Shown here: one piece after another, positions 23,139-36,553 of the stretch | Numbering within the stretch: the first letter of the stretch is position 1 | Layout of the letters: the number at the start of each line of letters is the position of its first letter | NCBI RefSeq assembly: GCF_000271485.2 | Contig: NZ_AKVN02000001.1 | Location: 2,505,501-2,569,500, forward strand | DNA from: Pelosinus fermentans DSM 17108 | GTDB taxonomy: Bacteria; Bacillota; Negativicutes; DSM-13327 | Length of the DNA: 64,000 nt | Direction: 5' to 3' | Made by a program: the position numbers and the translations under genes | The notes under the pieces: generated by a model | What the model was told of the DNA's origin: nothing | The model's input: the letters and a program-made list of their open reading frames with translations, nothing else | Databases searched by the model: none

Positions 23139-23705
23139 ATGACCTATGTTTATCCACAAGATGTTTTTACAGCTGTTGGAAATGGCGAAATTTCACCGAC
23201 TCAGGCATTTAAGTCTTTGCGAGAGTTAGATAATATAACTGCTCATCATACTAAGGTCGATAATCGGCAAAAGCGAATAGAAGAAATCTTATATGAATTA
23301 GACCATTTAATAGGATTGTCAGAAGTGAAAAAATTAGTTAGAGAGATTTACGCATTTATTGAAATTCAGCGTCGCCGCGTGCAGGAAAAATTAAATACGG
23401 AGCCATTAGTACTACATATGATCTTTAAGGGAAATCCAGGTACAGGGAAAACCACTGTTGCTAGGCTTCTTGGGCAAATATTTCGTGAGATTGGAGTATT
23501 ACAACGTGGTCATCTGATTGAGGTTGAGAGAGCTGATTTGGTTGGAGAATACATTGGGCATACAGCCCAAAAAACTCGAGAACAATTAAAAAAAGCATAT
23601 GGCGGCATCTTATTTATTGATGAAGCATATTCCTTAGCCCGAGGCGGTGAAAAAGATTTCGGTAAAGAATCTATTGATGTATTGGTAGAAACTAGTATGC
23701 AATAA
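23139..23705 (+). CDS. spoVK: spoVK, 5' half (interrupted AAA+ sporulation ATPase)
   Basis: Residues 1-183 match SpoVK/CbxX-type AAA+ ATPases: Walker A GNPGTGKT (98-105) and Walker B ILFIDEA (157-163). After Val183, inside IDVLV, the sequence leaves the family, adds ETSMQ and stops. The arginine finger and sensor 2 are missing; they lie 12.5 kb away at 36158-36553. Known SpoVK acts in the mother cell during spore maturation. The start ATG 23139 follows GGTGGGG, and hfq's terminator lies upstream, so the promoter should be in 23072-23138. I saw no convincing sigma-E or sigma-K site. Alone, this half should be non-functional. Confidence 0.92.
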
Positions 23706-23710
23706 CCTAA
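23665..23710 (+). other. left junction of the intervening element (attL)
   Basis: GATGTATTGGTAGAA here and GATGTCTTTGTAAAA at the right junction share GATGTnTTnGTAnAA. The shared GTA (23685-23687) is codon 183 of spoVK, and cutting there and joining to 36158 restores the frame. An ACCT at 23705-23708 forms the outer part of the candidate phage-type arm. Confidence 0.75.
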
Positions 23711-23745
23711 AGAGAAAATGCATATACAATATGGTACAATGGATT

Positions 23746-25275
23746 TTATAAAAACTTCAAATCAATCGTAAATTCAGGCTTACTATTCTTGGCGTAGGTA
23801 ATGTCAATTCGTTCAACATCTACTTTATCGAGTACAGCACGCATAGCAATCTTTCGCTCTTCCTCAGAGTAATACTGAGTATCTTTAAAGTATTTTTTTA
23901 GATTCATTGCAATGTCTGTGGGGCTAGTTTGAGGTGTAAGAAGATTCAATTCATCATTCAAGCATTTTTTTGTAATTTCAATGTCAATAAGTTGCCTGTT
24001 GATCTCATCTAACTGTTTTTCGGCATCACTGCTATTAATAATTTCATGACGAAACCATCGCATAATGGTTTCCTTTTGGATGCTTATTTTTTTTTCATTC
24101 TCCTTTAATCTTACTAAATTATTTTTAATCTTTACTGTTGCAATAGGATTTCCAATATTTTGTGCATATTGATCGATTAATTCGGGGTTTTTCGCCAACT
24201 CATGTAACTTATCCCATACCAATTCATCTAGTATAACCGCAGGGATACGTCTAGCTGTACATTTATCATTTTCTAAGTACAAATAGGATGTGCTAACTTG
24301 TGTTAAACAAGCATAATAGCTGACTGGATTATTGCTATTCCCCGAATGTTTGATAGTCATTTTTCTGCCGCAGCGTGCACAGCAGACTAGACCATTTAAA
24401 AGATAATCATTTTTTAAATTCCTTTTTGCTAAATCCTTATTCAATTGTAACTGTTTTTGTGCAGAGTGCCAGGTGAGTTCATCGACAATAGGAGGTACTT
24501 GAATAGGGATCCATTCAGATTCCGGTCGAATTTCAATTGTACGAGTGTTAAAACCTGTCTTGGTAGATTTGTGCTTCATACTATAAATAACGCCTCTATA
24601 GGCTGTATTCGTAAGTATGCGGTGTATGCTGGAGACAATCCAACGATTACCACGGGGAGCGGGGATACCTTCATTGTTCAACTCTTTGCTGATCAAGGCG
24701 GTACCCATTTTACTGTTGATACACAAATCAAATATTTGGCGTATAATAGCAGCTTGATCCTCATTTATAATATACATACTGTTAGCTTTATCATAGTCAT
24801 ATCCAAAACAGCGCCCATTGTTTACAAGCTTACCTTGACGAGCCTTTCCCTTTTTACCGCGGGTTGTACGTTCTTTGATTTTCTCTTTTTCATAAGCGGA
24901 TATGGCGCCTCGCATGGAGTAAAATAATTTTCCTTCAGGGGATGCTTCGAAGGTAACGGAGACAAACAGCAGCTTTGCTCCGGATTTTTCTATTTCATCC
25001 GTAATAATAAGTTGGTGAGCTAGGTTTCTGGCCAAACGATCAGGATCGTATATAACAACTATATCAAATTCTCTTCTTTCTAATCCATCACGTAGTTGGG
25101 TGAGGGCAGGGCGATCAATATATTCCCCGCTATAACCATCGTCAATAAACTCTACGAAAGTTGTTGCCCCCAATTCACTTGCTTTCTGACGGTTTTCCGA
25201 CAACTGAGTCTCAAGAGAGTATCCCTTTTCTGCTTGATCGGCTGTAGACACACGAATATAAAGTGCTGCAATCAT
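23746..25275 (-). CDS. large serine recombinase (SpoIVCA-like site-specific recombinase)
   Basis: 509 residues. N-terminal resolvase domain with YIRVST (nucleophile Ser10), DDGYSG and the YDPDRLARN segment with the catalytic Arg; a recombinase domain from about residue 150 (GYDYD, SIHRILTNTAYRGVI); a zinc ribbon with Cys299, Cys302, Cys323 and Cys339; then a coiled-coil region (about 370-440). These are the parts needed to cut and join att sites. The gene ends 58 bases from the left junction and reads towards it. The start ATG follows AGGAGG with 9-base spacing. It is the obvious enzyme for integrating or excising the spoVK element. Confidence 0.93.
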   Translation of the reverse strand: MIAALYIRVSTADQAEKGYSLETQLSENRQKASELGATTFVEFIDDGYSGEYIDRPALTQLRDGLERREFDIVVIYDPDRLARNLAHQLIITDEIEKSGAKLLFVSVTFEASPEGKLFYSMRGAISAYEKEKIKERTTRGKKGKARQGKLVNNGRCFGYDYDKANSMYIINEDQAAIIRQIFDLCINSKMGTALISKELNNEGIPAPRGNRWIVSSIHRILTNTAYRGVIYSMKHKSTKTGFNTRTIEIRPESEWIPIQVPPIVDELTWHSAQKQLQLNKDLAKRNLKNDYLLNGLVCCARCGRKMTIKHSGNSNNPVSYYACLTQVSTSYLYLENDKCTARRIPAVILDELVWDKLHELAKNPELIDQYAQNIGNPIATVKIKNNLVRLKENEKKISIQKETIMRWFRHEIINSSDAEKQLDEINRQLIDIEITKKCLNDELNLLTPQTSPTDIAMNLKKYFKDTQYYSEEERKIAMRAVLDKVDVERIDITYAKNSKPEFTIDLKFL

Positions 25276-25928
25276 ATATATGGGCCTCCTATCCGTAACA
25301 AGGTTGATATCATATTAACCTCTAATTATTTAAAACAATTAGAACAGCGTGAGTTAAGTTTATTCACTAATGCCATTACTTGAAAAAAGAGATATGCTTT
25401 TTATTTTGGTAACCATCACTTTTAATTAAGAATAGAGAACAATACGTATTTTACCATGATATTACAATATTGGAATTTATATTATAGAATTAAAGAAGAT
25501 GTGATGAATTATTTGTTAGCATAAAAGAACCAGTATGATCCACTCTACAGCCAATACTGATCTTACATACTTATAAGCCGAATTTCATCTACCTGTAAGA
25601 ATTGCCCAACTTGTACTGGTCTTTGCTCGATTGCTAAAGATCTCTCGCAATCTCTTTACAACGAACTTCCTATACTGGAACAGCCTTAAACTTGCATAGA
25701 TTCCTTTTCTTAAGAACTAATACAATAATGTCAATTTTTAGCAGGAATTAGCAAATTAAAAAGAGAAAGTAGCCATAATTCACTTTAAAGTAGTTATGGC
25801 TTTATCATTTTTAGTGAAGATGGAGTAGAGCGCAAGGCTATCGACATATAATTGAACGTTAGAAGATAATGATGAAATTACGTTTCTTGATTTAGTACAT
25901 TGCGCACTAACTACGGAGGTTACAGATA
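25276..25928. other. 650-base gene-free region inside the element
   Basis: No credible coding frame. A hairpin AGCCATAA/TTATGGCT (about 25771-25801) followed by a T-rich stretch looks like a terminator on the + strand. It should also hold the promoters of the recombinase (- strand) and the kinase (+ strand). Confidence 0.5.
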
Positions 25929-28064
25929 ATGTTTCGAATTAATACATTAAAGAAGAAGCTTGTTATTGGAGTATTCATCGCTTTTATTTGTCCTTATATG
26001 ATCAGTAGTGTAAGCATTGTTGAATTTATTAAAGATGATGTAAAAAATAATTTTATTAAATTGTCTGATCAACAGATTGATAATGTTGATTCAACAATTT
26101 CTAACGACATAATCAATCCCGCTTACTATGCAATCGATGTTTTATGCCGTGAAGATAGCACGAAACGATTGATGGAAACAATTGATAATCATGTGATTGT
26201 ATCGCCAACGGAACTTGATATAAGCCACTATCAATCTCTCGTATCTTACTATAAAACCCAACAATATATGGATGCTATTGGTATTGCCAGTGAAAATGGA
26301 GGATATTTTATTTATCCTGGTGCGAGTGATGATTTTTCACAATATGATCCGCGAAGAAGGGAGTGGTATCAAGCAGCAATTAATAAACATAGGCAACCAA
26401 ATCTCAATGGGCCTTATCATCGCCTATCAGGGCTTTTGATATTATCTGTATCGCAAGCGGTGCTTGATCATGAAGGCAACATCATTGGTGTTATGTTTTT
26501 GGGGTGGGATTTACAGAATTTTCAACATCAAATTGAGCAATATAAATTGGGCAAAACAGGCTTCATGATGGTGCTAGACCAAAATAATAAATTTATCGTT
26601 AGTCCTAAAAATCACAGTTGGTTGTCGAAACAACCAATTGATTTAGGGTTATTTGATTTAGAGCAACTAGAAAGTAAAACCGATGGAATGCATGAGGTTA
26701 TGCTAAATGGTACAAAGAAATATATTCGTATAAAAATTACCGATACTGGCTGGAAAATTATATCGGTGATTGATGCTGACGAATTGTCAGAGCAAATCTT
26801 TAATGTTATCAAAAAAATTATTGGTATTTTTGTCATCACCTTACTTATTGTTGTACTGGCCATCGGCATGTTGGCAAAATCATTTACTACTTCTATTGAA
26901 TCACTTTCTGAAGTTGCGACATCAATTACGCAAGGAAACCGGATAGTGCATTTTAATATTAAACGAAATGATGAAATTGGAACACTTGCCAATAGTATCA
27001 AGCAGATGGTAAAAGAGTTGTTTAAACAGGAGAGAGAATTTAAAACTTTAATTGAAAATACACAAGATGGTATTAGCCGTATTGATAAAAATTTACGATA
27101 TGTTTATGTAAATCCTGCCATGCAGAATTTATTTGGTGTGCCTGTCAAATCTTTTATGGGGAAAACGATGAATGATATATTGCCCGACCAAAATTGGATA
27201 CAGGCAATAACGGTAAGTGAACAGCAGGTTTTTAATACAGGGTTAGAGGTAATCGTTCTTCAAGAGTATCGCCGATTCAATGGAGACACTAGTTACATCC
27301 ATGTTCATGTCATTCCAGAGTTTGATCAAAGTAATCAAGTTGAAACTATTTTATGCGTGTTTCGTGATGTTACCCAGCTAAAAGACATGGAAAAAGCAGT
27401 TGCCCGAGCTAATAGCTTAAACCTGGTAGGAGAGATGGCAGCTGGAATTGCCCATGAAGTGCGTAATCCAATGGCTGCCGTTCGTGGATATCTCCAATTT
27501 CTTTCATTAAAAGATGTTGGAGTGAAATATAGTGAACAATTTAAGACGATGATAGAAGAGATTGATAATGCGAATGCAATTATTAAAGAATTTTTGGCAC
27601 TTGCAAAAGACTGTACAATCGATTTAAATAGAATTGATCTCAATTCCATTATCGAAGCGGTTTTCCCTCTATTGTTAGCAGATGCTAGGATGATAGATAA
27701 AGACATTGTTACCAATCTACAGCCTTTACCAATGTTATTATTAGATGAAAAACAGATTCGTCAGCTTCTGTTTAATTTAGTCCGTAATGGGCAAGACGCG
27801 ATGATGATGAAATCCCACGGCGTCGTAACTATTAGCACCTCGGTACGTAATCAGGAAGTAGTTTTAGCCATCAAAGATGAAGGAGCCGGCATTAGTCAAC
27901 ATGTTATCGATAAGATTGGAATTCCTTTTATCACCACAAAAGATACTGGGACAGGACTTGGTCTTGCAATATGCTATAGTATTGCCCAACGTCATAATGC
28001 ACGCATCGAGTTTGTCACTAGCACGCATGGAACGATTTTTTATGTTTCATTTACAATTGTGTAA
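25929..28064 (+). CDS. sensor histidine kinase, Cache-HAMP-PAS, sporulation-kinase type
   Basis: 711 residues. Membrane helix about 11-30; an extracellular double-Cache domain about 35-290 with DPRRREWYQAA (140-150); second helix about 293-315; HAMP about 316-365; PAS about 368-485; HisKA with phosphorylated His509 in AGIAHEVRNPMAAVRGYLQFL; ATPase with N box (616-625), DEGAG (650-654) and TGTGLGLA (673-680). The HExRNPxxxVRGxLQ context is like KinA-KinE, the orphan kinases that feed Spo0F or Spo0A. No response regulator adjoins it. Start after CGGAGG. Its place in the spoVK element suggests a sporulation or stress input; the ligand is unknown. Confidence 0.9.
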   Translation: MFRINTLKKKLVIGVFIAFICPYMISSVSIVEFIKDDVKNNFIKLSDQQIDNVDSTISNDIINPAYYAIDVLCREDSTKRLMETIDNHVIVSPTELDISHYQSLVSYYKTQQYMDAIGIASENGGYFIYPGASDDFSQYDPRRREWYQAAINKHRQPNLNGPYHRLSGLLILSVSQAVLDHEGNIIGVMFLGWDLQNFQHQIEQYKLGKTGFMMVLDQNNKFIVSPKNHSWLSKQPIDLGLFDLEQLESKTDGMHEVMLNGTKKYIRIKITDTGWKIISVIDADELSEQIFNVIKKIIGIFVITLLIVVLAIGMLAKSFTTSIESLSEVATSITQGNRIVHFNIKRNDEIGTLANSIKQMVKELFKQEREFKTLIENTQDGISRIDKNLRYVYVNPAMQNLFGVPVKSFMGKTMNDILPDQNWIQAITVSEQQVFNTGLEVIVLQEYRRFNGDTSYIHVHVIPEFDQSNQVETILCVFRDVTQLKDMEKAVARANSLNLVGEMAAGIAHEVRNPMAAVRGYLQFLSLKDVGVKYSEQFKTMIEEIDNANAIIKEFLALAKDCTIDLNRIDLNSIIEAVFPLLLADARMIDKDIVTNLQPLPMLLLDEKQIRQLLFNLVRNGQDAMMMKSHGVVTISTSVRNQEVVLAIKDEGAGISQHVIDKIGIPFITTKDTGTGLGLAICYSIAQRHNARIEFVTSTHGTIFYVSFTIV

Positions 28065-28136
28065 GTTCTATTATTAGTTAATTTCTCCCTTTTTTTATAT
28101 ACTCTAATTAGATTATATAAAAAGAGGTGTAAGCTA

Positions 28137-28790
28137 ATGAACTACCATATTTGTTCTTTGAACCAAACTCATTTCACGCAGATTATGGATTTACAAAAAA
28201 TTGTTGCCGAGCATTTAACTAGACCTGACTTACTTAATCTTAAGAATGATGAATTGATTTACGCAAGGCTAAAAATCCCAAACAGCGTCATAGGGGCATA
28301 CGATGGAGGAAATTTAATTGGCTATCACGTTATGAACATGGTTGATTTAACAAAAGAATTGATCAATATTGATGTAAGCTGGCTACCTGGCACAGTTACG
28401 AGAATCACTAAATTAGGACCGACTGCAGTACATCCAGCGCATCGCGGCAAGCAATTAATTGCCGCGATGGGATTGGTTCAGTTTGATATTATTCGGCAAA
28501 GTGATTATTATCATGCAATTGCCACTGTTTCACCCTATAACTACCCTAGTCTTAAGTTCTTGTTTTCCCAAGGGTATCAATTGATTCATATTATCGTAGC
28601 CTATGCTGGAATGCTTCGCTTCGTCCTTTTTCGTAACTTTCGGGAAGATATACAAGAAGAGCAATATACATTGAGAGTATCACATGAGAATATTGATACG
28701 CAGCAATTGCTCCTTGCAAAGCACTTTCATGGATACGGAATTTGCAAGACTGACAAGGGACATGATATTATCTATGGTTACACAGAGTAA
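28137..28790 (+). CDS. GNAT-family N-acetyltransferase
   Basis: 217 residues. The acetyl-CoA loop appears as TKLGPTAVHPAHRGKQLIAAMG (about residues 97-118), the V-x-P-x-x-R-G-x-x-x pattern of the GNAT fold; SPYNYPSLKFLFSQGY is the usual late segment. RBS AGAGGTG. It follows the kinase gene by 72 bases and may be cotranscribed. Substrate unknown; the C-terminus is more divergent. The next 170 bases up to the IS contain no gene I can support. Confidence 0.8.
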   Translation: MNYHICSLNQTHFTQIMDLQKIVAEHLTRPDLLNLKNDELIYARLKIPNSVIGAYDGGNLIGYHVMNMVDLTKELINIDVSWLPGTVTRITKLGPTAVHPAHRGKQLIAAMGLVQFDIIRQSDYYHAIATVSPYNYPSLKFLFSQGYQLIHIIVAYAGMLRFVLFRNFREDIQEEQYTLRVSHENIDTQQLLLAKHFHGYGICKTDKGHDIIYGYTE

Positions 28791-28957
28791 CGGATCGTGA
28801 TGTAGGTTCCTCCGAAATTGGGTGGAGAAGTGAATTGAAGCTAATAACTATAGATTCCGATACGGACGTGATTCCCATGATGCCATACAAGCCATCTTTA
28901 TTGGTATAGTATATAAGCCTAAATCATCTTAAATGCAGAGATTGCCAAAAATCTTTT

Positions 28958-28965
28958 GACAATCC
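28958..28965 (+). repeat. target-site duplication, left copy
   Basis: GACAATCC directly abuts the left inverted repeat of the IS66 element; the identical copy is at 31508-31515. Eight bases is the normal IS66 duplication. Confidence 0.92.
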
Positions 28966-29081
28966 GTAAGCGTCAAACAACCAAGTGGATAGTTTTCAAG
29001 CTAACTCCATGAGATAATATTTCCAAATTAGAGTTTTTCAAGTTTTTAGAGTTGCTTGAAAAACTCCAAGGAGGAGTTATC

Positions 29082-29459
29082 TTGGATACTCAAAAAATCA
29101 AGCAGACTTACCGATTAAATCAATGGACTGACATTGTCCGGCAATGCCGTAGTAGTGGGCAAACTGTTGCTGCTTTTTGTAAAGAACAGAATTTGAAGCC
29201 CCAAAGTTATTACTATTGGTTAAAACTTGTTCGTGAAGCTGCCTGCAAAGCACTTCCTGTCATTAGCAACGATACAAACATGATTGTTCCTCTTACGTTT
29301 AGAGAACCACCGACTTGCTCAAGTAAGTCGGTGGTAACTTCAAAAATCACACTGCATTATGGAGATTTCTCCTTAGATTTGGAGGAAAATACTTCACCTC
29401 TTTTTATTGAAAATACAATTCGCACTTTGATGAGCCTTCAAGAAAAACAATCATGCTAG
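29082..29459 (+). CDS. tnpA: IS66 accessory protein TnpA
   Basis: 125 residues; the N-terminal WTDIVRQCRSSGQTVAAFCK and SYYYWLKLVRE segments form the helix-turn-helix typical of IS66 Orf1. TTG 29082 follows AAGGAGGAG. It overlaps tnpB by 7 bases, giving translational coupling. Confidence 0.88.
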   Translation: MDTQKIKQTYRLNQWTDIVRQCRSSGQTVAAFCKEQNLKPQSYYYWLKLVREAACKALPVISNDTNMIVPLTFREPPTCSSKSVVTSKITLHYGDFSLDLEENTSPLFIENTIRTLMSLQEKQSC

Positions 29460-29809
29460 GAGATATCTCAAAAGCTGAACAGATCTATATTGCCACTGGC
29501 TATACGGACATGCGCAAATCGATTGATGGTCTCTGCGCTATTGTGCAACAAAATTTTCAAATGAATCCATTTCAGAAAAACCTTTTTCTTTTCAGCGGCA
29601 GAAAACATGATCGTTTAAAAATTCTATACTGGGAAGGCGATGGATTTTTACTTTTATATAAAAGGCTAGAAGGCGGAAAATTTCAATGGCCCAAAGATGC
29701 GCAAGCAGCTCGCTCAATCTCAATACAAGAATTCCGCTGGCTCTTAGAAGGCCTCTCTATTGATCAACCCAAAGCTGTAAAGAAAGTAACCATAGCTAAA
29801 GTTATATAA
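29453..29809 (+). CDS. tnpB: IS66 accessory protein TnpB
   Basis: 118 residues. IYIATGYTDMRKSIDGLCAIV, FLFSGRKHDRLKILYWEGDGFLLLYKRLE and the tail FRWLLEGLSI match IS66 Orf2. It is required for transposition in IS66 elements, though its biochemical role is not settled. Confidence 0.93.
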   Translation: MLGDISKAEQIYIATGYTDMRKSIDGLCAIVQQNFQMNPFQKNLFLFSGRKHDRLKILYWEGDGFLLLYKRLEGGKFQWPKDAQAARSISIQEFRWLLEGLSIDQPKAVKKVTIAKVI

Positions 29810-29903
29810 AATAAAACGTCGATAAACCCTTGATTTTACTGGGATTATCGACGTTTTCATGGTATAATAAGGATATAAGAAACGTGAAGGAATTATCATT
29901 ATT

Positions 29904-31439
29904 ATGAGCATAACGATACCAGAATCACCATTAGAAAATCGCATAGCTCAATTAGAATTAGAGAACAAACGTCTGCATGATACGGTTGCCTATTTGACAC
30001 GCCAACTCTTCGGCAGAAGCTCTGAAAAAACAACGGCTTTATTTGATGGACAACTCTCTCTTTTTGATGAAGCAGAAATAGAGGCTAAGAAAAAAGCTCC
30101 TGAACCTGATCTAAAGGATGTCGAGAGTTACCGTCGTAAAACATTCAAAGGTCAGCGTGAAAAACTATTAGAAAATCTTCCCCATACCAAACGCCTTTGT
30201 ACACTAGTAGCCGAAGACCGTTTCTGCGAAATATGTGAGACACCATTGGTATCTGTTGGTGAAGAATTTGTACGTACTGAAATTGAATTCATTCCAGCAA
30301 AAGTTATTGTCATCGATTATTACCGTGAAACCTTTGAATGTAGAAAATGTCGTAAAGATGGCCGCGAATACATGGAAAAATCCCCGATGCCATCTCCTGT
30401 ATTACAGCATTCCATGGCATCACCATCCACAATTGCTTGGGTTATGCATCAAAAGTTCGTCAATGCACTCCCACTTTATCGACAGGAAAAAGAATGGCTC
30501 TCGATGGGGGTCGCGCTCAGTCGTGCAACAATGGCAAACTGGATCATGGTTGCCTCGAGGGATTGGCTAATGCCAATCCTGAATCGGATGCATCAAGAAA
30601 TGATTCAACAAACTCATTTGCATGCAGATGAAACTACCGTTCAAGTCATGAACGAAAAAGACCGGAAGAATACCACAGTTTCCTACATGTGGGTATATTC
30701 TACCGGCCAATATTGCAAGACGCCAATACGGATATTCGACTATCAACCAGGAAGACATGGGAAATATCCACAGAAATTCCTGACAGGATTCAAAGGGTAT
30801 CTCCATACGGATGCTTATTCTGGTTACAATAAAGTACCAGGTATTACACGATGTTTTTGCTGGACGCACCTACGTAGGAATTTTGTAGATGCTCTTCCTA
30901 GTGATATCCAAAGTCCGGAATCAACGATTCCACAGCAAGGCATTTTATATATCAATAAACTTTTTGAATTGGAAAAGGGACTTGAATCCTTTAACTCCGA
31001 AGAACGAAAAGCACAGCGTCTGAAGCAGGAAATACCTGTTTTAGACGCCTTTTGGTTATGGATTGATTCTATCAAAGGTCAGATTCTGCCTAAATCAAAG
31101 TTAGGATCTGCAGTGAATTATGCCTTAAACCAAAAGGATGGGTTGATGAATTACCTTAAAGATGGTAACTGCTCTATTTCTAACAATTTGGCTGAAAACA
31201 GTATTCGTCCCTTTACCATAGGACGCAAAAATTGGCTATTCAGTGGCAGCCCCAAAGGCGCAGCCGCTAGTGCTGCTGTTTACAGCATCATTGAAACTGC
31301 AAAAGCCAATGGATTAGATCCTTATAAATATTTGCACTTCATTTTAAATAATCTTCCTGGAGCACAGTTCCATCGGTATCCTGAACTTCTAGAAGATTAT
31401 TTACCGTGGAATCCAGAAGTTCAACAAATTTGTAAATAA
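29904..31439 (+). CDS. tnpC: IS66 transposase TnpC
   Basis: 511 residues. An N-terminal coiled coil (leucine-zipper type, IAQLELENKRLHDTVAYL), a Cys-containing zinc region (CEICETP, CRKC), a DDE core with HLHADETTVQV, YLHTDAYSGYN and the Glu in SNNLAENSIRPF, and the terminal LPWN-type tail. Full length. Confidence 0.94.
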   Translation: MSITIPESPLENRIAQLELENKRLHDTVAYLTRQLFGRSSEKTTALFDGQLSLFDEAEIEAKKKAPEPDLKDVESYRRKTFKGQREKLLENLPHTKRLCTLVAEDRFCEICETPLVSVGEEFVRTEIEFIPAKVIVIDYYRETFECRKCRKDGREYMEKSPMPSPVLQHSMASPSTIAWVMHQKFVNALPLYRQEKEWLSMGVALSRATMANWIMVASRDWLMPILNRMHQEMIQQTHLHADETTVQVMNEKDRKNTTVSYMWVYSTGQYCKTPIRIFDYQPGRHGKYPQKFLTGFKGYLHTDAYSGYNKVPGITRCFCWTHLRRNFVDALPSDIQSPESTIPQQGILYINKLFELEKGLESFNSEERKAQRLKQEIPVLDAFWLWIDSIKGQILPKSKLGSAVNYALNQKDGLMNYLKDGNCSISNNLAENSIRPFTIGRKNWLFSGSPKGAAASAAVYSIIETAKANGLDPYKYLHFILNNLPGAQFHRYPELLEDYLPWNPEVQQICK

Positions 31440-31507
31440 TGAAGCAACCACTAGAGTATATCTCAGTGGTTGCTATTTTTCTACCCACCTAGTTGTTTTA
31501 CGCTTAC

Positions 31508-31515
31508 GACAATCC
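31508..31515 (+). repeat. target-site duplication, right copy
   Basis: GACAATCC, identical to 28958-28965. Confidence 0.92.
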
Positions 31516-31525
31516 ACACATAAAT

Positions 31526-31576
31526 GCACAGCCTGCCCATTTAAATAATGGAGTAAGGCTGTGCTTATTTCTTTTT
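31526..31576 (+). terminator. terminator just beyond the IS66 copy
   Basis: GCACAGCCT (31526-31534) pairs with AGGCTGTGC (31556-31564), followed by a T-rich run. Before the IS arrived it probably ended the kinase-acetyltransferase transcript. Confidence 0.7.
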
Positions 31577-31710
31577 CAGACTAGATCATAATGTCATTGT
31601 AATCAAGCATTATTATCTAAACTAAGTTCTAAGTTGTTAAAATTGTAAAGCGGACAATCATATCCAGCATAAACTGTATCGGGCAACGATTTGAATAGGA
31701 GGCGAAGATT

Positions 31711-31884
31711 TTGGAAAGTACACAAAAGGTCAATCGATCTAAAATATCGCCAGAAAAACTAAAAGAAATAAAAGTGCATTGGAGGATGTTAAATCAACCA
31801 ACTCAAGAAGCGCTGGAGAATTACAATCGGATTTTAGCAAAGGCTCAACTTAGAGTTTATCATCAAGTATTTGGAAGCAAATAG
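31711..31884 (+). CDS. small hypothetical protein, 57 residues
   Basis: TTG 31711 is preceded by AGGAGGCG with 6-base spacing. The product is charged and helical (KISPEKLKEIKVHWRMLNQP, then QEALENYNRILAKAQ) and resembles small phage-type helical proteins only in general character. No family recognised. The stretch after it up to 31980 has no supported gene. Confidence 0.5.
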   Translation: MESTQKVNRSKISPEKLKEIKVHWRMLNQPTQEALENYNRILAKAQLRVYHQVFGSK

Positions 31885-31980
31885 CCGGTACTCCGGCTGT
31901 AAACAAAGTGGACAGGCAGTGATATAAGGTGGACTGACTTACGTTGATGCCTGGTTTTGGGAGTCCAAGCCGATGCGTTT

Positions 31981-32244
31981 TTATCGATGATTATTGATGC
32001 GGTGAAGCTGGTTGTTAGTCGATTTGGTGTAGTGCTTGTCATTAGTCACGTTATGGCTGCTCTGGAATCCTTTGAGTAAAAGATATTCTTTAAGCCTTAG
32101 GATGAGTCCTTGGAAGTATTGGTGGTATAGCTCAGAGACTCTTTCATTTACTGCTAAAACGAAGACCATTCCACCATAAAGCAAAAACGGGGTAATAAAA
32201 GATAAGGTGCCCAGCACCTTATCTAAAGTGACAATATCTATCAA
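31981..32244 (-). CDS. small protein with one membrane helix, 87 residues
   Basis: TTG 32244 follows AGGAGGT with 6-base spacing on the - strand. Residues about 11-32 (LGTLSFITPFLLYGGMVFVL) are hydrophobic, then a basic amphipathic part. The last 25 residues are low complexity and the reading may be decayed. It could be a phage-like small membrane protein, but nothing identifies it. Confidence 0.4.
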   Translation of the reverse strand: MIDIVTLDKVLGTLSFITPFLLYGGMVFVLAVNERVSELYHQYFQGLILRLKEYLLLKGFQSSHNVTNDKHYTKSTNNQLHRINNHR

Positions 32245-32298
32245 TTATTTACCTCCTGTAAAAGTCAAGATAGAACAGTATATGCGGAAGGTAATAAA

Positions 32299-32427
32299 AT
32301 GATTCCTATTAAGATCCTGTTCTCGTCAGATTGCTCAAAATGCCGTAGGAGTGAATTTGTAACAGTCGATAAGCCAAAGCCAGCTCGTGTGCTAGCTGAA
32401 TGTAGCTGTAAGCAGAGGGAGGCTTGA
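32299..32427 (+). CDS. possible Cys-rich mini-protein, 42 residues
   Basis: ATG 32299 follows GGAAGG. The product MIPIKILFSSDCSKCRRSEF ends in AECSCKQREA, so it has a CxxC and a CxC pair about 25 residues apart, a plausible small zinc site. Short length and weak context keep confidence low. Confidence 0.35.
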   Translation: MIPIKILFSSDCSKCRRSEFVTVDKPKPARVLAECSCKQREA

Positions 32428-32929
32428 TATAGCCTAAATAAGATCATCATTATATTTTATTCCTGGGAAATATTAGGATATGTGTATATAATAATAACTT
32501 CACTTTCACACTAAAGGGATGATTGTGGGACCATGTATATATGGTGGTTGGTTAATGGATGATGTGGAGAATACTGCTCTTATTGCCAGCAGCGATAAGA
32601 CACTGTTAACAATGGTGCTTGGTCTAAGATGTCGACCGTGATTACAAAGATTCATGTCAATTGGTTAGATAAAAAAAGAACAAGACCAGCTCCGTTGATG
32701 GTCTTGTTCAGGAGAATATGTACAGGCTCCATTGTTATGGTCACCTGTTGGAAGAGGAAAATGTGCACAGTCATATTATTGCCAATTAAGGCATAGGATA
32801 TACGCGGAAGGAGTAAGCACTGTCATGAATGCTGCTAAGCATACCTAGGAATGCTTAGATAATAGTAGAATTATGACTAGTCAATTCATGAAGTAACTGA
32901 TTCCGAACAGAAGCTAAGAGGAGATGGCG
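32428..32929. other. 500-base decayed region inside the element
   Basis: No gene I can support. A perfect 11-bp stem GAACAAGACCA/TGGTCTTGTTC (about 32679-32712) has a T run on the - strand and looks like a terminator without a gene. A second hairpin CTAAGCAT/ATGCTTAG lies near 32835-32860. Confidence 0.5.
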
Positions 32930-33150
32930 TTGAGAATGAAGCAGCTTATTCTAATGTTGGCTATAGTGGCAATGCAATATACAGTGAACTCTGGTGACAC
33001 ACTTCAGTCTATGCTGAACAATATTGCCAGGGGGATGACCCACGTCAAGTTGCGGAGTTTCGCGAAGGAATCAGGGAACTGAATTATGGCGTGATTGGTG
33101 AGAGTGATGTGTGGGAGGGGCTAGTTTTAGAAATAAATCGATGGATGTGA
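32930..33150 (+). pseudogene. frameshifted LysM-domain protein
   Basis: From TTG 32930 (after AGAGGAG) the frame encodes MRMKQLILMLAIVAMQYTVN then SGDTLQS, the start of a secreted or membrane LysM protein. From about 33012 the family sequence continues in the next frame as AEQYCQGDDPRQVAEFREG, IRELNY and a final LEINRWM, then the stop at 33150. One missing base near 33011-33013 explains the break. LysM domains bind peptidoglycan. Confidence 0.72.
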
Positions 33151-33173
33151 ATGAAGTTTTATAGTAAGATAGT

Positions 33174-33632
33174 TCATCTTGACAGCTTTTCGAAATGAAA
33201 GATCTTATGATACATATAAAATAGTAAAAATAATATCCAGTCAGCTACATAAGAGTACCAAAAAGTCCATCCATGGTGATGAGCCATGTGTCCTGTATTG
33301 ATATGAATGTATTCAATAAGCACTGCGAATAACGTCCATGGGAAAATGTAAGTAAATAGATCTAAAAGTCGCTGCCTTTTTGGAAGCCATTGGATATAGA
33401 GATAAGTAACAACAGCGTATATTTCAAAATCGTCTAAGAGTACCATAATAATCTTAGGGTGATTTCCGTAATACTCCCAATATGTTATATGAAAATTTGT
33501 AAAGTGATCACTTATTACCCCTAATAATGAAGCAAAAATACTTACGGGCGCTATTTCTCTCCAACGTGCTTTATCAGCAAAGATTAGCCAACAAGTCCAA
33601 GAGACAAGAAAACGCATATAAAAGAAATCCAA
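33174..33632 (-). CDS. small multi-spanning membrane protein (CBO0543-like)
   Basis: 152 residues with four to five membrane helices and a conserved-looking polar centre (SDHFTNFHITYWEYYGNHP, LLDDFEIYAVVTYLYIQWLP). This pattern recalls the CBO0543 family of spore-forming Firmicutes, whose function is unknown; the link is by memory of the pattern and is tentative. The C-terminus has HMAHHHGWTFWYS, rich in His. The gene lies on the - strand inside the element. Confidence 0.6.
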   Translation of the reverse strand: MDFFYMRFLVSWTCWLIFADKARWREIAPVSIFASLLGVISDHFTNFHITYWEYYGNHPKIIMVLLDDFEIYAVVTYLYIQWLPKRQRLLDLFTYIFPWTLFAVLIEYIHINTGHMAHHHGWTFWYSYVADWILFLLFYMYHKIFHFEKLSR

Positions 33633-33943
33633 ATTAAAGGCTCCCTATAAAAACGATTATGGTAATTACTCTTATTATTTGGATAATTATTGAAAAATAT
33701 CCAATAAAGTAACAGAAAACTGAAAAGGAGATAATAGATTATTAACTAAGTTCGCAGCTGAAGAGCCGTAAGTGCGGCTATGAATTAGCTTGCACAACAG
33801 AGTTTAAAAGAAAAGGATAGATATAAACTAAGCTAACGACATTGGAATAAAAAGGAGCCCCAGGGCTGTTTTAACATAAAACAAGTCATATAATTATTAC
33901 TCGCTCATAAAATTTATTAAAGTATTATGTGTGGAGGGATAAT
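33633..33943. other. gene-free stretch inside the element
   Basis: AT-rich, with a small AGCCG/CGGCT hairpin near 33764-33780. It ends with the ribosome binding site GGAGGG of the next gene. Confidence 0.4.
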
Positions 33944-34276
33944 ATGGAATTTATTGTTAGTACTTTATTAGCAGTATTTGCTTACTTGGATGGTTTGAGA
34001 ACAAAAAAACAATTACTAGCAGCAATTAATTCAAACTATGTAAATCGTCTAGAAGAAGCAATTAATGATTTACAAACACAAGATCAACAATTATTAAAAG
34101 ATATTCAGCAAGAATTAATTCAAAAAGGACAACTTGATTTAGCTGAAAAAATAAATACGATTCTAAGTAGTAATTTTAAAGTATCTCCTGAATCATTCAT
34201 CATCCTTAAATCATATTCAAATAGTGAGCAGTTATATAAATTAACTATGAGTAGTGGCTTGCTATCGCTCAAATAG
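33944..34276 (+). CDS. hypothetical protein, 110 residues
   Basis: ATG 33944 is chosen because GGAGGG precedes it with normal spacing. One N-terminal hydrophobic segment (EFIVSTLLAVFAYLDGL) is followed by a long charged helix likely to form a coiled coil (NRLEEAINDLQTQDQQLLKD, about residues 30-75). No family recognised. Confidence 0.6.
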   Translation: MEFIVSTLLAVFAYLDGLRTKKQLLAAINSNYVNRLEEAINDLQTQDQQLLKDIQQELIQKGQLDLAEKINTILSSNFKVSPESFIILKSYSNSEQLYKLTMSSGLLSLK

Positions 34277-34524
34277 ACAGCTTTATAATCATAAGCAATT
34301 AAATGGATCAGTCATTAATACGGCTAAAAAAGGTGTCTATAACCCAACTTATAAAAATGAAAAGACAGAAGGTATACGCTACCATTGAAATTTAATTTTA
34401 AGACATAGAAGGATATAGTAAATTCAGGCACTGGCGGTATAACGGGACAAACTTGTCCGGACGATGGTGATTATCTAGACATTTTTGATGTAAACTTAAA
34501 TGGCCTTTTAGGGCGGTTTTCTTA

Positions 34525-34561
34525 GGCAAAAAAATAAACCACGTCTTGGTGGAACGTGGTT
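34525..34561 (-). terminator. terminator of the 38-residue gene
   Basis: On the - strand AACCACGT (34561-34554) pairs with ACGTGGTT (34544-34537), followed by TATTTTTTT. It lies just beyond the stop of the gene at 34599, which supports that gene as real. The rest of 34277-34524 shows no gene. Confidence 0.8.
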
Positions 34562-34598
34562 GCAAGAGGTAATGCTTTGGTGGATTTGTTTAGAAAAA

Positions 34599-34715
34599 TT
34601 AACAACTAGAAGAAAAATCGTTATCGCAACAGAAAAATAATAAAATAATAATTATAATAATTATACAGCCGGAACCGCCGAAGCCATTGCGACCGCCTCC
34701 AAAACCTAGACCCAT
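34599..34715 (-). CDS. Gly-rich hydrophobic mini-protein (YjcZ-like), 38 residues
   Basis: AGGAGGAG lies 5 bases before ATG 34715. The product has a Gly-rich head (MGLGFGGGRNGFGGSGC), a membrane-length run of isoleucine, leucine and phenylalanine, and a Cys-rich tail (FFCCDN ... SSSC). This is the layout of YjcZ-type small proteins found in spore-formers, many of them linked to spores. A terminator follows. Family assignment is by layout only. Confidence 0.72.
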   Translation of the reverse strand: MGLGFGGGRNGFGGSGCIIIIIIILLFFCCDNDFSSSC

Positions 34716-34847
34716 AAGTACTCCTCCTTTATCGTCGATTAATATATTGTATGATAGCTAAACAAAAGAGGTGAGTATCATGTGAAGATAAAATGCTCGT
34801 CGAATAAAATATAGATCGGTGCTGTTGCTAATTTATAATTAGAAATT

Positions 34848-34880
34848 ACCTTTGGTATACCTTTAGAATACCTTTAGTAA
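34848..34880 (+). repeat. three tandem 11-bp direct repeats
   Basis: ACCTTTGGTAT, ACCTTTAGAAT and ACCTTTAGTAA follow one another without gaps. An 11-base period puts each ACCTTT on the same face of the helix, as in many operator arrays. It lies 133 bases upstream of the 34599-34715 gene and downstream of the 34992-35078 gene. Confidence 0.6.
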
Positions 34881-34991
34881 ATATAAAATATGAATTCAAG
34901 GAACCTGTACATTCTTGTTTATACAAGTGATAATTAAGTTAATTTAGTCTGAAATGAGCATCTCTGATGGGGTGCTATTTTCTTTGAAAAC

Positions 34992-35078
34992 TTACCAATT
35001 GCTACAGGACCAAAAAAGTAAAATGAAGATGATAATTATAAAAATAAACCAAATACCCCAACCATTATAGAAATTCAT
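34992..35078 (-). CDS. hydrophobic mini-protein, 28 residues
   Basis: GGAGG lies 7 bases before ATG 35078. MNFYNGWGIWFIF is followed by an Ile/Leu/Phe run, then LLFWSCSNW and the stop. It shares the short aromatic/Gly head and single hydrophobic segment with the mini-gene at 34599, on the same strand. Probably a second YjcZ-like small protein. Confidence 0.6.
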   Translation of the reverse strand: MNFYNGWGIWFIFIIIIFILLFWSCSNW

Positions 35079-35238
35079 AAATATTCCTCCAATCTTTAAT
35101 TGATTTTCTCTGATTAATCTATTTTATTCAAAAAAAACATAAGAGGTGCATTATTGTAAAGATAGATCTATGAAAGGATTTGTAGTTTATTTCAAGAATT
35201 ATGTTTCTTGAGAAGACAATATAAATGGAGGAATAAAT

Positions 35239-35856
35239 ATGAAACCAAAGTGGCTTAATTGGGCTAAGCAATTGCAATCACTTGCACAAGCAGGATTGAC
35301 ATATTCAAAGGATAAGTATGATATCGAAAGATTTCAACAGATTAGAAATTTATCAGTAGAGATATTGAGTGAATATACTGGGATCAGCAATGAAAAAATA
35401 GAGGACTTATTCTGCAATGAAATAGGATATCAAACACCTAAAATCGACATAAGAGGGGCTATTTTTAAAGAAAATAAGATATTGTTAGTTAAAGAAAGTG
35501 TTGATGGCTGTTGGTCGATGCCTGGTGGTTGGGCAGAATTTAATTTATCAATTAAAGAAAATATAATAAAGGAAGCAAGAGAAGAAGCAGGATTAAATGT
35601 GGTTCCCAAGAGATTAATAGCGGTATTAGACAGAAATAAACATAATGAACCTGTATCTGCTTATGGAATATATAAGATATTCGTACTTTGTGAGTTGATA
35701 GATGGTGCTTTTGAAAAAAATATAGAAACTGAAGAAAGTGGTTTCTTTTCTTTAGCAGACTTACCTCCATTATCTGTAGAGAGAAACACAAAAAAACAAA
35801 TCGAGATGTGCTTTAACTCTAAATCAAATGATAAATTTTTTACAATATTTGATTAG
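35239..35856 (+). CDS. Nudix hydrolase with N-terminal NUDIX_N domain
   Basis: 205 residues; residues 1-65 resemble the helical N-terminal domain seen in ADP-ribose/nucleoside-diphosphate-X pyrophosphatases, and 70-200 are the Nudix fold. The Nudix box spans 97-119 (GWAEFNLSIKENIIKEAREE). The catalytic Glu residues 112, 115 and 116 are present, but the first Glu of the box is Leu103 and the Arg is Lys111. RBS GGAGG. Substrate unknown. Confidence 0.85.
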   Translation: MKPKWLNWAKQLQSLAQAGLTYSKDKYDIERFQQIRNLSVEILSEYTGISNEKIEDLFCNEIGYQTPKIDIRGAIFKENKILLVKESVDGCWSMPGGWAEFNLSIKENIIKEAREEAGLNVVPKRLIAVLDRNKHNEPVSAYGIYKIFVLCELIDGAFEKNIETEESGFFSLADLPPLSVERNTKKQIEMCFNSKSNDKFFTIFD

Positions 35857-35904
35857 ACAAATTTAATAATAACAACGCCATGTAGCTGGCAATATCTAAA
35901 AGCA

Positions 35905-35937
35905 AAAAAGAGCTGAGTAACATCAGCTCTTTTTATT
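35905..35937 (+). terminator. terminator after the Nudix gene
   Basis: AAAAAGAGCTGA (35905-35916) pairs with TCAGCTCTTTTT (35923-35934). Confidence 0.88.
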
Positions 35938-36130
35938 ACTAACTTGGCATTTGGGATGAAGTCATCATTTTTATTTTTAGCTTGTGTATCATCATGGGCA
36001 GGCAAGTTCATTTATTTGATGATATGACAAATGGTTCATAGAACGAAAATGAGAACAACTCCCTAGACTATGTGCTTAGGGAGTTATTTGCTTATACATA
36101 TATTTACGTATTAATGCAAGTAATTATTTT
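35938..36130. other. gene-free right end of the element
   Basis: No gene. A hairpin AACTCCCTAG/CTTAGGGAGTT (36057-36085) lies about 70 bases from the junction and could block element transcription from entering spoVK. Confidence 0.5.
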
Positions 36131-36170
36131 ACAGGTCTTTATATAGATGTCTTTGTAAAATCAATGGAAG
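36131..36170 (+). other. right junction of the intervening element (attR)
   Basis: GATGTCTTTGTAAAA matches the left junction. In the circular form, AGGT at 36133-36136 and ACCT at 23705-23708 face each other across 46 bases centred within GT of the shared GTA (36155-36157), with further symmetric matches in the arms. That size fits attP of large serine recombinases. Confidence 0.72.
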
Positions 36171-36553
36171 ATCATAAAGAGGAACTAATCTTAATTTTAG
36201 CTGGTTATCAAAAAGAAATGGAATTTTTCTTACAGACCAATCCTGGTTTACGGTCTCGATTTCCAATACATATCGATTTTCCAGACTATAACCAACAAGA
36301 GCTTTTACATATAGCAGAGCAACTATGTGCTAAGCGGCAGTATACCTTACCGGCAGATACTAAAACATTATTATTAAAATTATTACTACAACACAGTAGT
36401 AATAACGACAATTTTGGTAATGCTCGGACTGTTCGTAATATGATTGAAAGAGCAATTCGTCATCAAGCTGTTAGATTAATGTCAAAAACGAGTATTACCA
36501 GGCAAGAACTAATACTAATTGAACCTGTTGATTTAAAGGAGGTAAAGGAGTGA
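36158..36553 (+). CDS. spoVK: spoVK, 3' half (interrupted AAA+ sporulation ATPase)
   Basis: Codons AAA TCA ATG continue the SpoVK sequence lost at 23687: KSMEDHKEELILILAGYQ, the arginine finger NPGLRSRF and sensor 2 GNARTVRNMIERAI. In the joined protein these are residues 184-314; Bacillus SpoVK is about 322. There is no ribosome binding site or good promoter directly before ATG 36164, so this half is probably silent until joined. It ends GTGA, overlapping the GTG start of the next gene by four bases. Confidence 0.9.
   Translation, partial: KSMEDHKEELILILAGYQKEMEFFLQTNPGLRSRFPIHIDFPDYNQQELLHIAEQLCAKRQYTLPADTKTLLLKLLLQHSSNNDNFGNARTVRNMIERAIRHQAVRLMSKTSITRQELILIEPVDLKEVKE

Follow-up and report, generated by a model that had tools for sequence, protein, structure and literature searches.

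A putative skin-like intervening element in the sporulation gene spoVK of Pelosinus fermentans and other Negativicutes

We analyzed a 64,000-nt stretch of the Pelosinus fermentans DSM 17108 genome (the window, in whose positions coordinates are given here) in which the sporulation gene spoVK is interrupted after codon 183 (V183|K184) by a 12,470-bp element at 23688-36157 (Table 1). The frame of the N-terminal half is open to the junction and meets a stop 5 codons further on, at 23705. Both junctions share the trinucleotide GTA, at 23685-23687 and 36155-36157, and the halves joined across it give 314 codons with no stop, the predicted rejoined junction of this strain being ...ATTGATGTATTGGTA|AAATCAATGGAAGAT.... 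The original prediction had described a spoVK gene split into two open halves with a 314-codon join, and a large serine recombinase (LSR) 58 bases from the left end of the element; the coordinates, the shared GTA and the stop-free joined frame bear out the former, and an open reading frame (ORF) lying 58 bp inside the left boundary bears out the latter. The joined product scores 416.4 bits against TIGR02881, where the curated cut-off is 422.95; intact SpoVK orthologs of relatives likewise fall just below it, at 415.1, 417.9 and 422.4 bits. The locus lies downstream of hfq and the gene is 89% identical to an intact ortholog. A second, intact spoVK, which would have spoken against the prediction, is absent: the whole genome (5.03 Mb, 2 contigs) gives strong matches to the two halves only.

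Table 1. Features of the interrupted spoVK locus, in window positions
Feature	Position	Strand	Remarks
spoVK N half, codons 1-183, Walker A and B	23139..23687	+	TIGR02881, 243 bits
Left GTA core copy (3 bp, shared), within attL	23685..23687	.	Position corroborated by natural attP/attL/attR in relatives
attL inner arm (attP-derived)	23688..23716	.	Inverted-repeat partner of right inner arm
Large serine recombinase, 509 aa, intact	23746..25275	-	Resolvase, Recombinase and Zn-ribbon domains
Cargo: dCache-PAS-HisKA-HATPase sensor histidine kinase	25929..28064	+	Kinase domain resembles KinD
Cargo: GNAT-like protein	28137..28790	+	Match under Pfam cut-off
Cargo: IS66-family insertion, three ORFs (29052-31439)	28966..31513 (ends approximate)	+	GACAATCC 8-bp duplications flank
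Cargo: small ORF, family unassigned	33929..34276	+	
Cargo: Nudix hydrolase	35239..35856	+	
attR inner arm with right GTA core copy (36155-36157)	36127..36157	.	
spoVK C half, codons 184-314 and stop	36158..36553	+	TIGR02881, 155 bits

With its three domains and length of about 500 aa the LSR has the make-up of a phage-type large serine integrase, and it matches the PHROG 95 integrase family with 347 bits. Phage structural or packaging genes, which would mark a prophage, gave no convincing matches among the six larger non-transposase ORFs of the element. The LSR is the sole gene common to all 22 elements that were read, whose sizes range from 3.0 to 23.1 kb. It lies between or beside the spoVK halves in every split genome whose locus was read, is intact in every one where it was read whole, and shows ratios of nonsynonymous to synonymous substitution rates (dN/dS) of 0.07-0.14 between split genomes. 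A directionality factor common to all elements was considered and rejected, since the LSR alone is shared; a candidate, a 50-aa ORF beside (upstream of) the LSR, is conserved in 7 Sporomusa-type elements only. The sensor histidine kinase of the cargo is also found in the element of one close relative, with a remnant in another. At 32924-33150 a small LysM-type protein is shorter or disrupted in the window; it is intact in the elements of three relatives.

The distribution of the split was examined in 381 Negativicutes genomes, with a separate phylum-wide sample for other classes. In 25 of the 381, from several families, spoVK is split at the same codon. The original prediction had called for a comparison of intact and split alleles among sister strains, and both kinds exist: seven of the eight genomes of the window's genus are split (in two of them the contig holds only one half), the only exception being genome G007 with an intact gene. 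In the further 18 genomes beyond the genus the N half ends at about codon 183-188 and the C half starts at codon 184. Carriers include P. fermentans JBW45, P. propionicus DSM 13327, Sporomusa acidovorans and Propionispora sp. 2/2-37. About 22 intact orthologs of similar closeness were found, so that roughly half of the spoVK carriers have the split. The phylum-wide sample added a single case: a genome of another class (G489) has a 76-kb element within spoVK, carrying polysaccharide-synthesis genes and an LSR (loci L167 and L170-L172); this LSR shows 27% identity, and the break lies within 12 bp of the Negativicutes split point. With the split recurring at one codon and a second LSR lineage striking within 12 bp of it, the site behaves like a hot spot for integration.

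A simple explanation would be that an ordinary mobile element has merely inactivated spoVK, the halves being relics in strains that have lost sporulation or do not depend on SpoVK for it. The IS66 insertion and the variable cargo fit such a history, and excision is after all deduced from comparison. However, none of the 25 split loci has its frame broken before the junction, the LSR is intact wherever it could be read whole, and, where testable, both halves give dN/dS of only 0.01-0.12 between split pairs, at synonymous distances (dS) of up to 2 or more; ratios for split-versus-split pairs resemble those of split-versus-intact comparisons. Such values in both halves over large synonymous distances argue that the spoVK product is still used. 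The decay of the halves in relatives that would have counted against the original prediction was thus not seen, and we consider simple inactivation very unlikely.

A tree of 23 split and 18 intact spoVK genes requires at least 10 changes between the split and intact states, 6 of them forced by well supported branches. The intact gene of G300 branches within a split pair and that of G007 within Pelosinus; such nested intact alleles would fit losses as well as repeated gains. In a tree of 24 spoVK-associated and 17 other LSRs, all 24 fall on one side of a single branch (1 change, 0 of 500 shuffles). Within one subclade the LSR branching departs from that of the host genes, which suggests transfer between families. 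The spoVK element is old, and its gains and losses are patchy. A search of viral contigs for a related LSR found one phage-like contig (47%), without spoVK and on the non-spoVK side of the tree, and known phages gave distant integrases only (<30% in the best matches).

The nested intact alleles could also be read as precise loss (or repeated gain) on an evolutionary time scale, with excision being real but random or stress-induced and good spores made only by cells that happen to have lost the element. A change of form with growth phase, reported for the C. botulinum yin element (PMC10747680), would be in keeping with this. Were spores to arise from element-free cells only, however, the element should be purged rapidly, yet it is present in 7 of the 8 genomes of the genus and in 25 overall. 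Excision unconnected with sporulation therefore seems to us highly improbable.

The GTA core of the window is complemented by full attP, attB, attL and attR sites in relatives. In most Sporomusa-type elements the inner arm of attL is an inverted repeat of that of attR, with 16-25 of 30 positions matching against a random mean of 12; in one example the left arm is AAACTCAGGAAGCAAATCA and the right arm, as reverse complement, AAACCCAGGATACAAATCA. The Sporomusa-type genome G300 has an intact spoVK (attB) and a palindromic attP, TTTATACTGATTTGCATCCTGGGTTTTGTGAAACTCAGGATGCAAATCAGTAT, at 4.536 Mb, ~250 kb from spoVK; this is the only match among the 12 genomes of its family. A second attP-like site lies 2.2 kb from it, adjoining a degenerate LSR. 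In G298 the right arm of the palindromic G300 attP stands after the N half of spoVK, forming attL; before the C half come a left arm and the same set of neighbors (LSR-MFS-hydantoinase-pyrF-queE-queC) as is found next to the attP sites of G300. These attL and attR sites are joined exactly at the predicted core. The two halves of G298 are on opposite strands at a distance of 292 kb, and an intact LSR adjoins attR, although 15 kb separate attL from the part that is syntenic with G300. In G299 the C-side arrangement is the same as in G298 over ~12 kb, the N half being on another contig, which makes a single assembly error unlikely.

The arrangement of G298 is that expected if an attP and an attB of one chromosome, inverted relative to each other, had recombined, with an inversion in place of an insertion as the outcome. 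It places the crossover precisely at the core that the window sequence had indicated. Precise recombination products are here known as fixed alleles between species. From these sequences it is possible, though doubtful, that in G298, and probably G299, spoVK is rebuilt by site-specific inversion, with ~290 kb flipped in the mother cell, and that G300, in which the LSR is broken, attP complete and spoVK intact, resembles the flipped-back state. In some relatives, then, the LSR would perhaps invert DNA rather than excise an element.

The same sites bear on the suggestion that each half is translated on its own and that the two products associate as a functional split AAA+ protein. The open frames of both halves, and an in-frame ATG two codons into the C half, would be in keeping with this. 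That first ATG has no Shine-Dalgarno-like sequence before it, however, but a recombination arm, and intact genes recur in split lineages at the same site, whose core is a recombination site. A functional split protein is in our view hardly credible.

We consider it highly likely that the element is a skin-like intervening element, excised by its own LSR with restoration of spoVK, presumably in the sporulating mother cell. This reading was already put forward in the original prediction, and genome comparison strongly supports an LSR-mobilized, skin-like element that must be removed for function: there are one split codon in 25 genomes, a conserved and intact LSR, conserved att arms, halves that are both under purifying selection, repeated gains and losses of the element, and natural attB, attP, attL and attR sites with precise attP x attB products in relatives. 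The LSR would have inserted its own 12.47-kb element into an attB within spoVK, at codons following Walker B, leaving the gene split and silent in vegetative cells. In sporulating cells this enzyme, probably aided by a directionality factor, would recombine attL with attR at a GT(A/G) core, releasing the element as a circle and restoring an uninterrupted 314-codon spoVK. SpoVK functions in the mother cell, and the cortex depends on it (PMC10659427); a Pelosinus isolate is reported to form heat-resistant spores (PMC6107796). Rejoining would presumably take place in the terminal mother cell, where SpoVK serves cortex synthesis, while the forespore would retain the element. The split at one codon in about half of the spoVK carriers, together with a recombinase of its own, suggests that the DNA is probably cut and rejoined at each sporulation.

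Several observations weigh against this interpretation. The inverted-repeat arms are weak in Pelosinus (p about 0.02) and not significant in some other elements, and bootstrap support for the grouping of spoVK-associated LSRs is only moderate (71%). No candidate directionality factor was recognized in the Pelosinus elements. Upstream of the LSR no convincing sigma-E or sigma-K promoter was found, in regions that align poorly. Finally, we infer excision, its timing, the cell type and the need for a directionality factor from genome comparison.

Sporulation genes known from the literature as targets of intervening elements are sigK, spsM, spoVFB, gerE and yabG (including PMC5595907, PMC10747680). 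Our literature searches, which did not reach subscription papers, found no report of spoVK as such a target. Like skin in sigK of Bacillus subtilis and Clostridioides difficile, the spoVK element interrupts, with the frame preserved, a sporulation gene of the mother cell and brings an LSR of its own, and the gene has to be rejoined in order to work. Unlike skin, it targets spoVK and has no recognized phage structural genes, and its LSR is far removed from that of the window genome's own sigK element, which is ~27% identical and belongs to a distant LSR branch. As further context for the skin-like reading, that sigK gene is itself split, at C1:2222390-2231000. The skin-like element responsible measures ~7.9 kb and encodes an LSR (L055, L105, L106), and the joined SigK passes TIGR02846 (353 vs 299 bits). 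SPbeta in spsM offers a parallel in which a serine integrase (SprA/YokA with SprB/YotN) recombines attL and attR sites that lie within a sporulation gene, and YokA is among the closest solved relatives of the spoVK LSR. SPbeta is, however, a full prophage, whereas the spoVK element lacks recognizable phage structural genes and the elements of relatives are only 3-23 kb.

Excision also rebuilds a sporulation gene in the cases of gin in gerE (B. cereus ATCC10987), vfbin in spoVFB and yin in yabG (PMC5595907, PMC10747680). These papers do not name spoVK among the targets. The gin element, like that of spoVK, carries no phage genes (PMC5595907); yin is reported from one strain, whereas the spoVK element is present in several families, always at one codon. 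In heterocyst-forming cyanobacteria a serine recombinase, XisF, likewise excises the fdxN element in the course of development, a system that differs in organism, target and developmental program; the XisF model matches the spoVK LSR with 109 bits, below its cut-off of 375. The kind of element is known; what is new, as far as we have checked, is the target, the lineage, the recurrence at a single codon in different families and the possible inversion form. The gene of a cortex chaperone, spoVK, would join a short list of genes rebuilt by DNA rearrangement during sporulation, and the phenomenon would extend to the Negativicutes, where its extent suggests a trait of long standing, repeatedly gained and lost, rather than a curiosity of one strain. 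With natural attB, attP, attL and attR sequences known, the reaction lends itself to direct tests in vitro, and the spoVK LSR family provides a new set of recombinases with defined sites.

Several other genes of the genus are also interrupted or altered by LSR-encoding DNA. A second LSR at the extreme 3' end of sigK alters the last codons in three genomes (L064 in G003, L058 in G007 and L071 in G008), and where it co-occurs with the internal element sigK would be in three pieces. Four genomes of the genus share an interruption of a gene for a FeoB-like iron transporter, at one place, by a small element that carries an LSR and a YitT-like gene (L054 in G000, L063 in G006, L066 in G008 and L067 in G007). 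In a YlmC/YmxH-type gene the first codons (MIKTSDL) are separated from the rest by an element that encodes an LSR and a porin (L053 in G000, L061 in G008 and L070 in G006); the right part retains an alternative start, and in G000 an 11-bp sequence, TCAGATCTTAA, is shared. At the 3' end of sigE in G006 (L069), a phage-like element with an LSR has rewritten the last codons.
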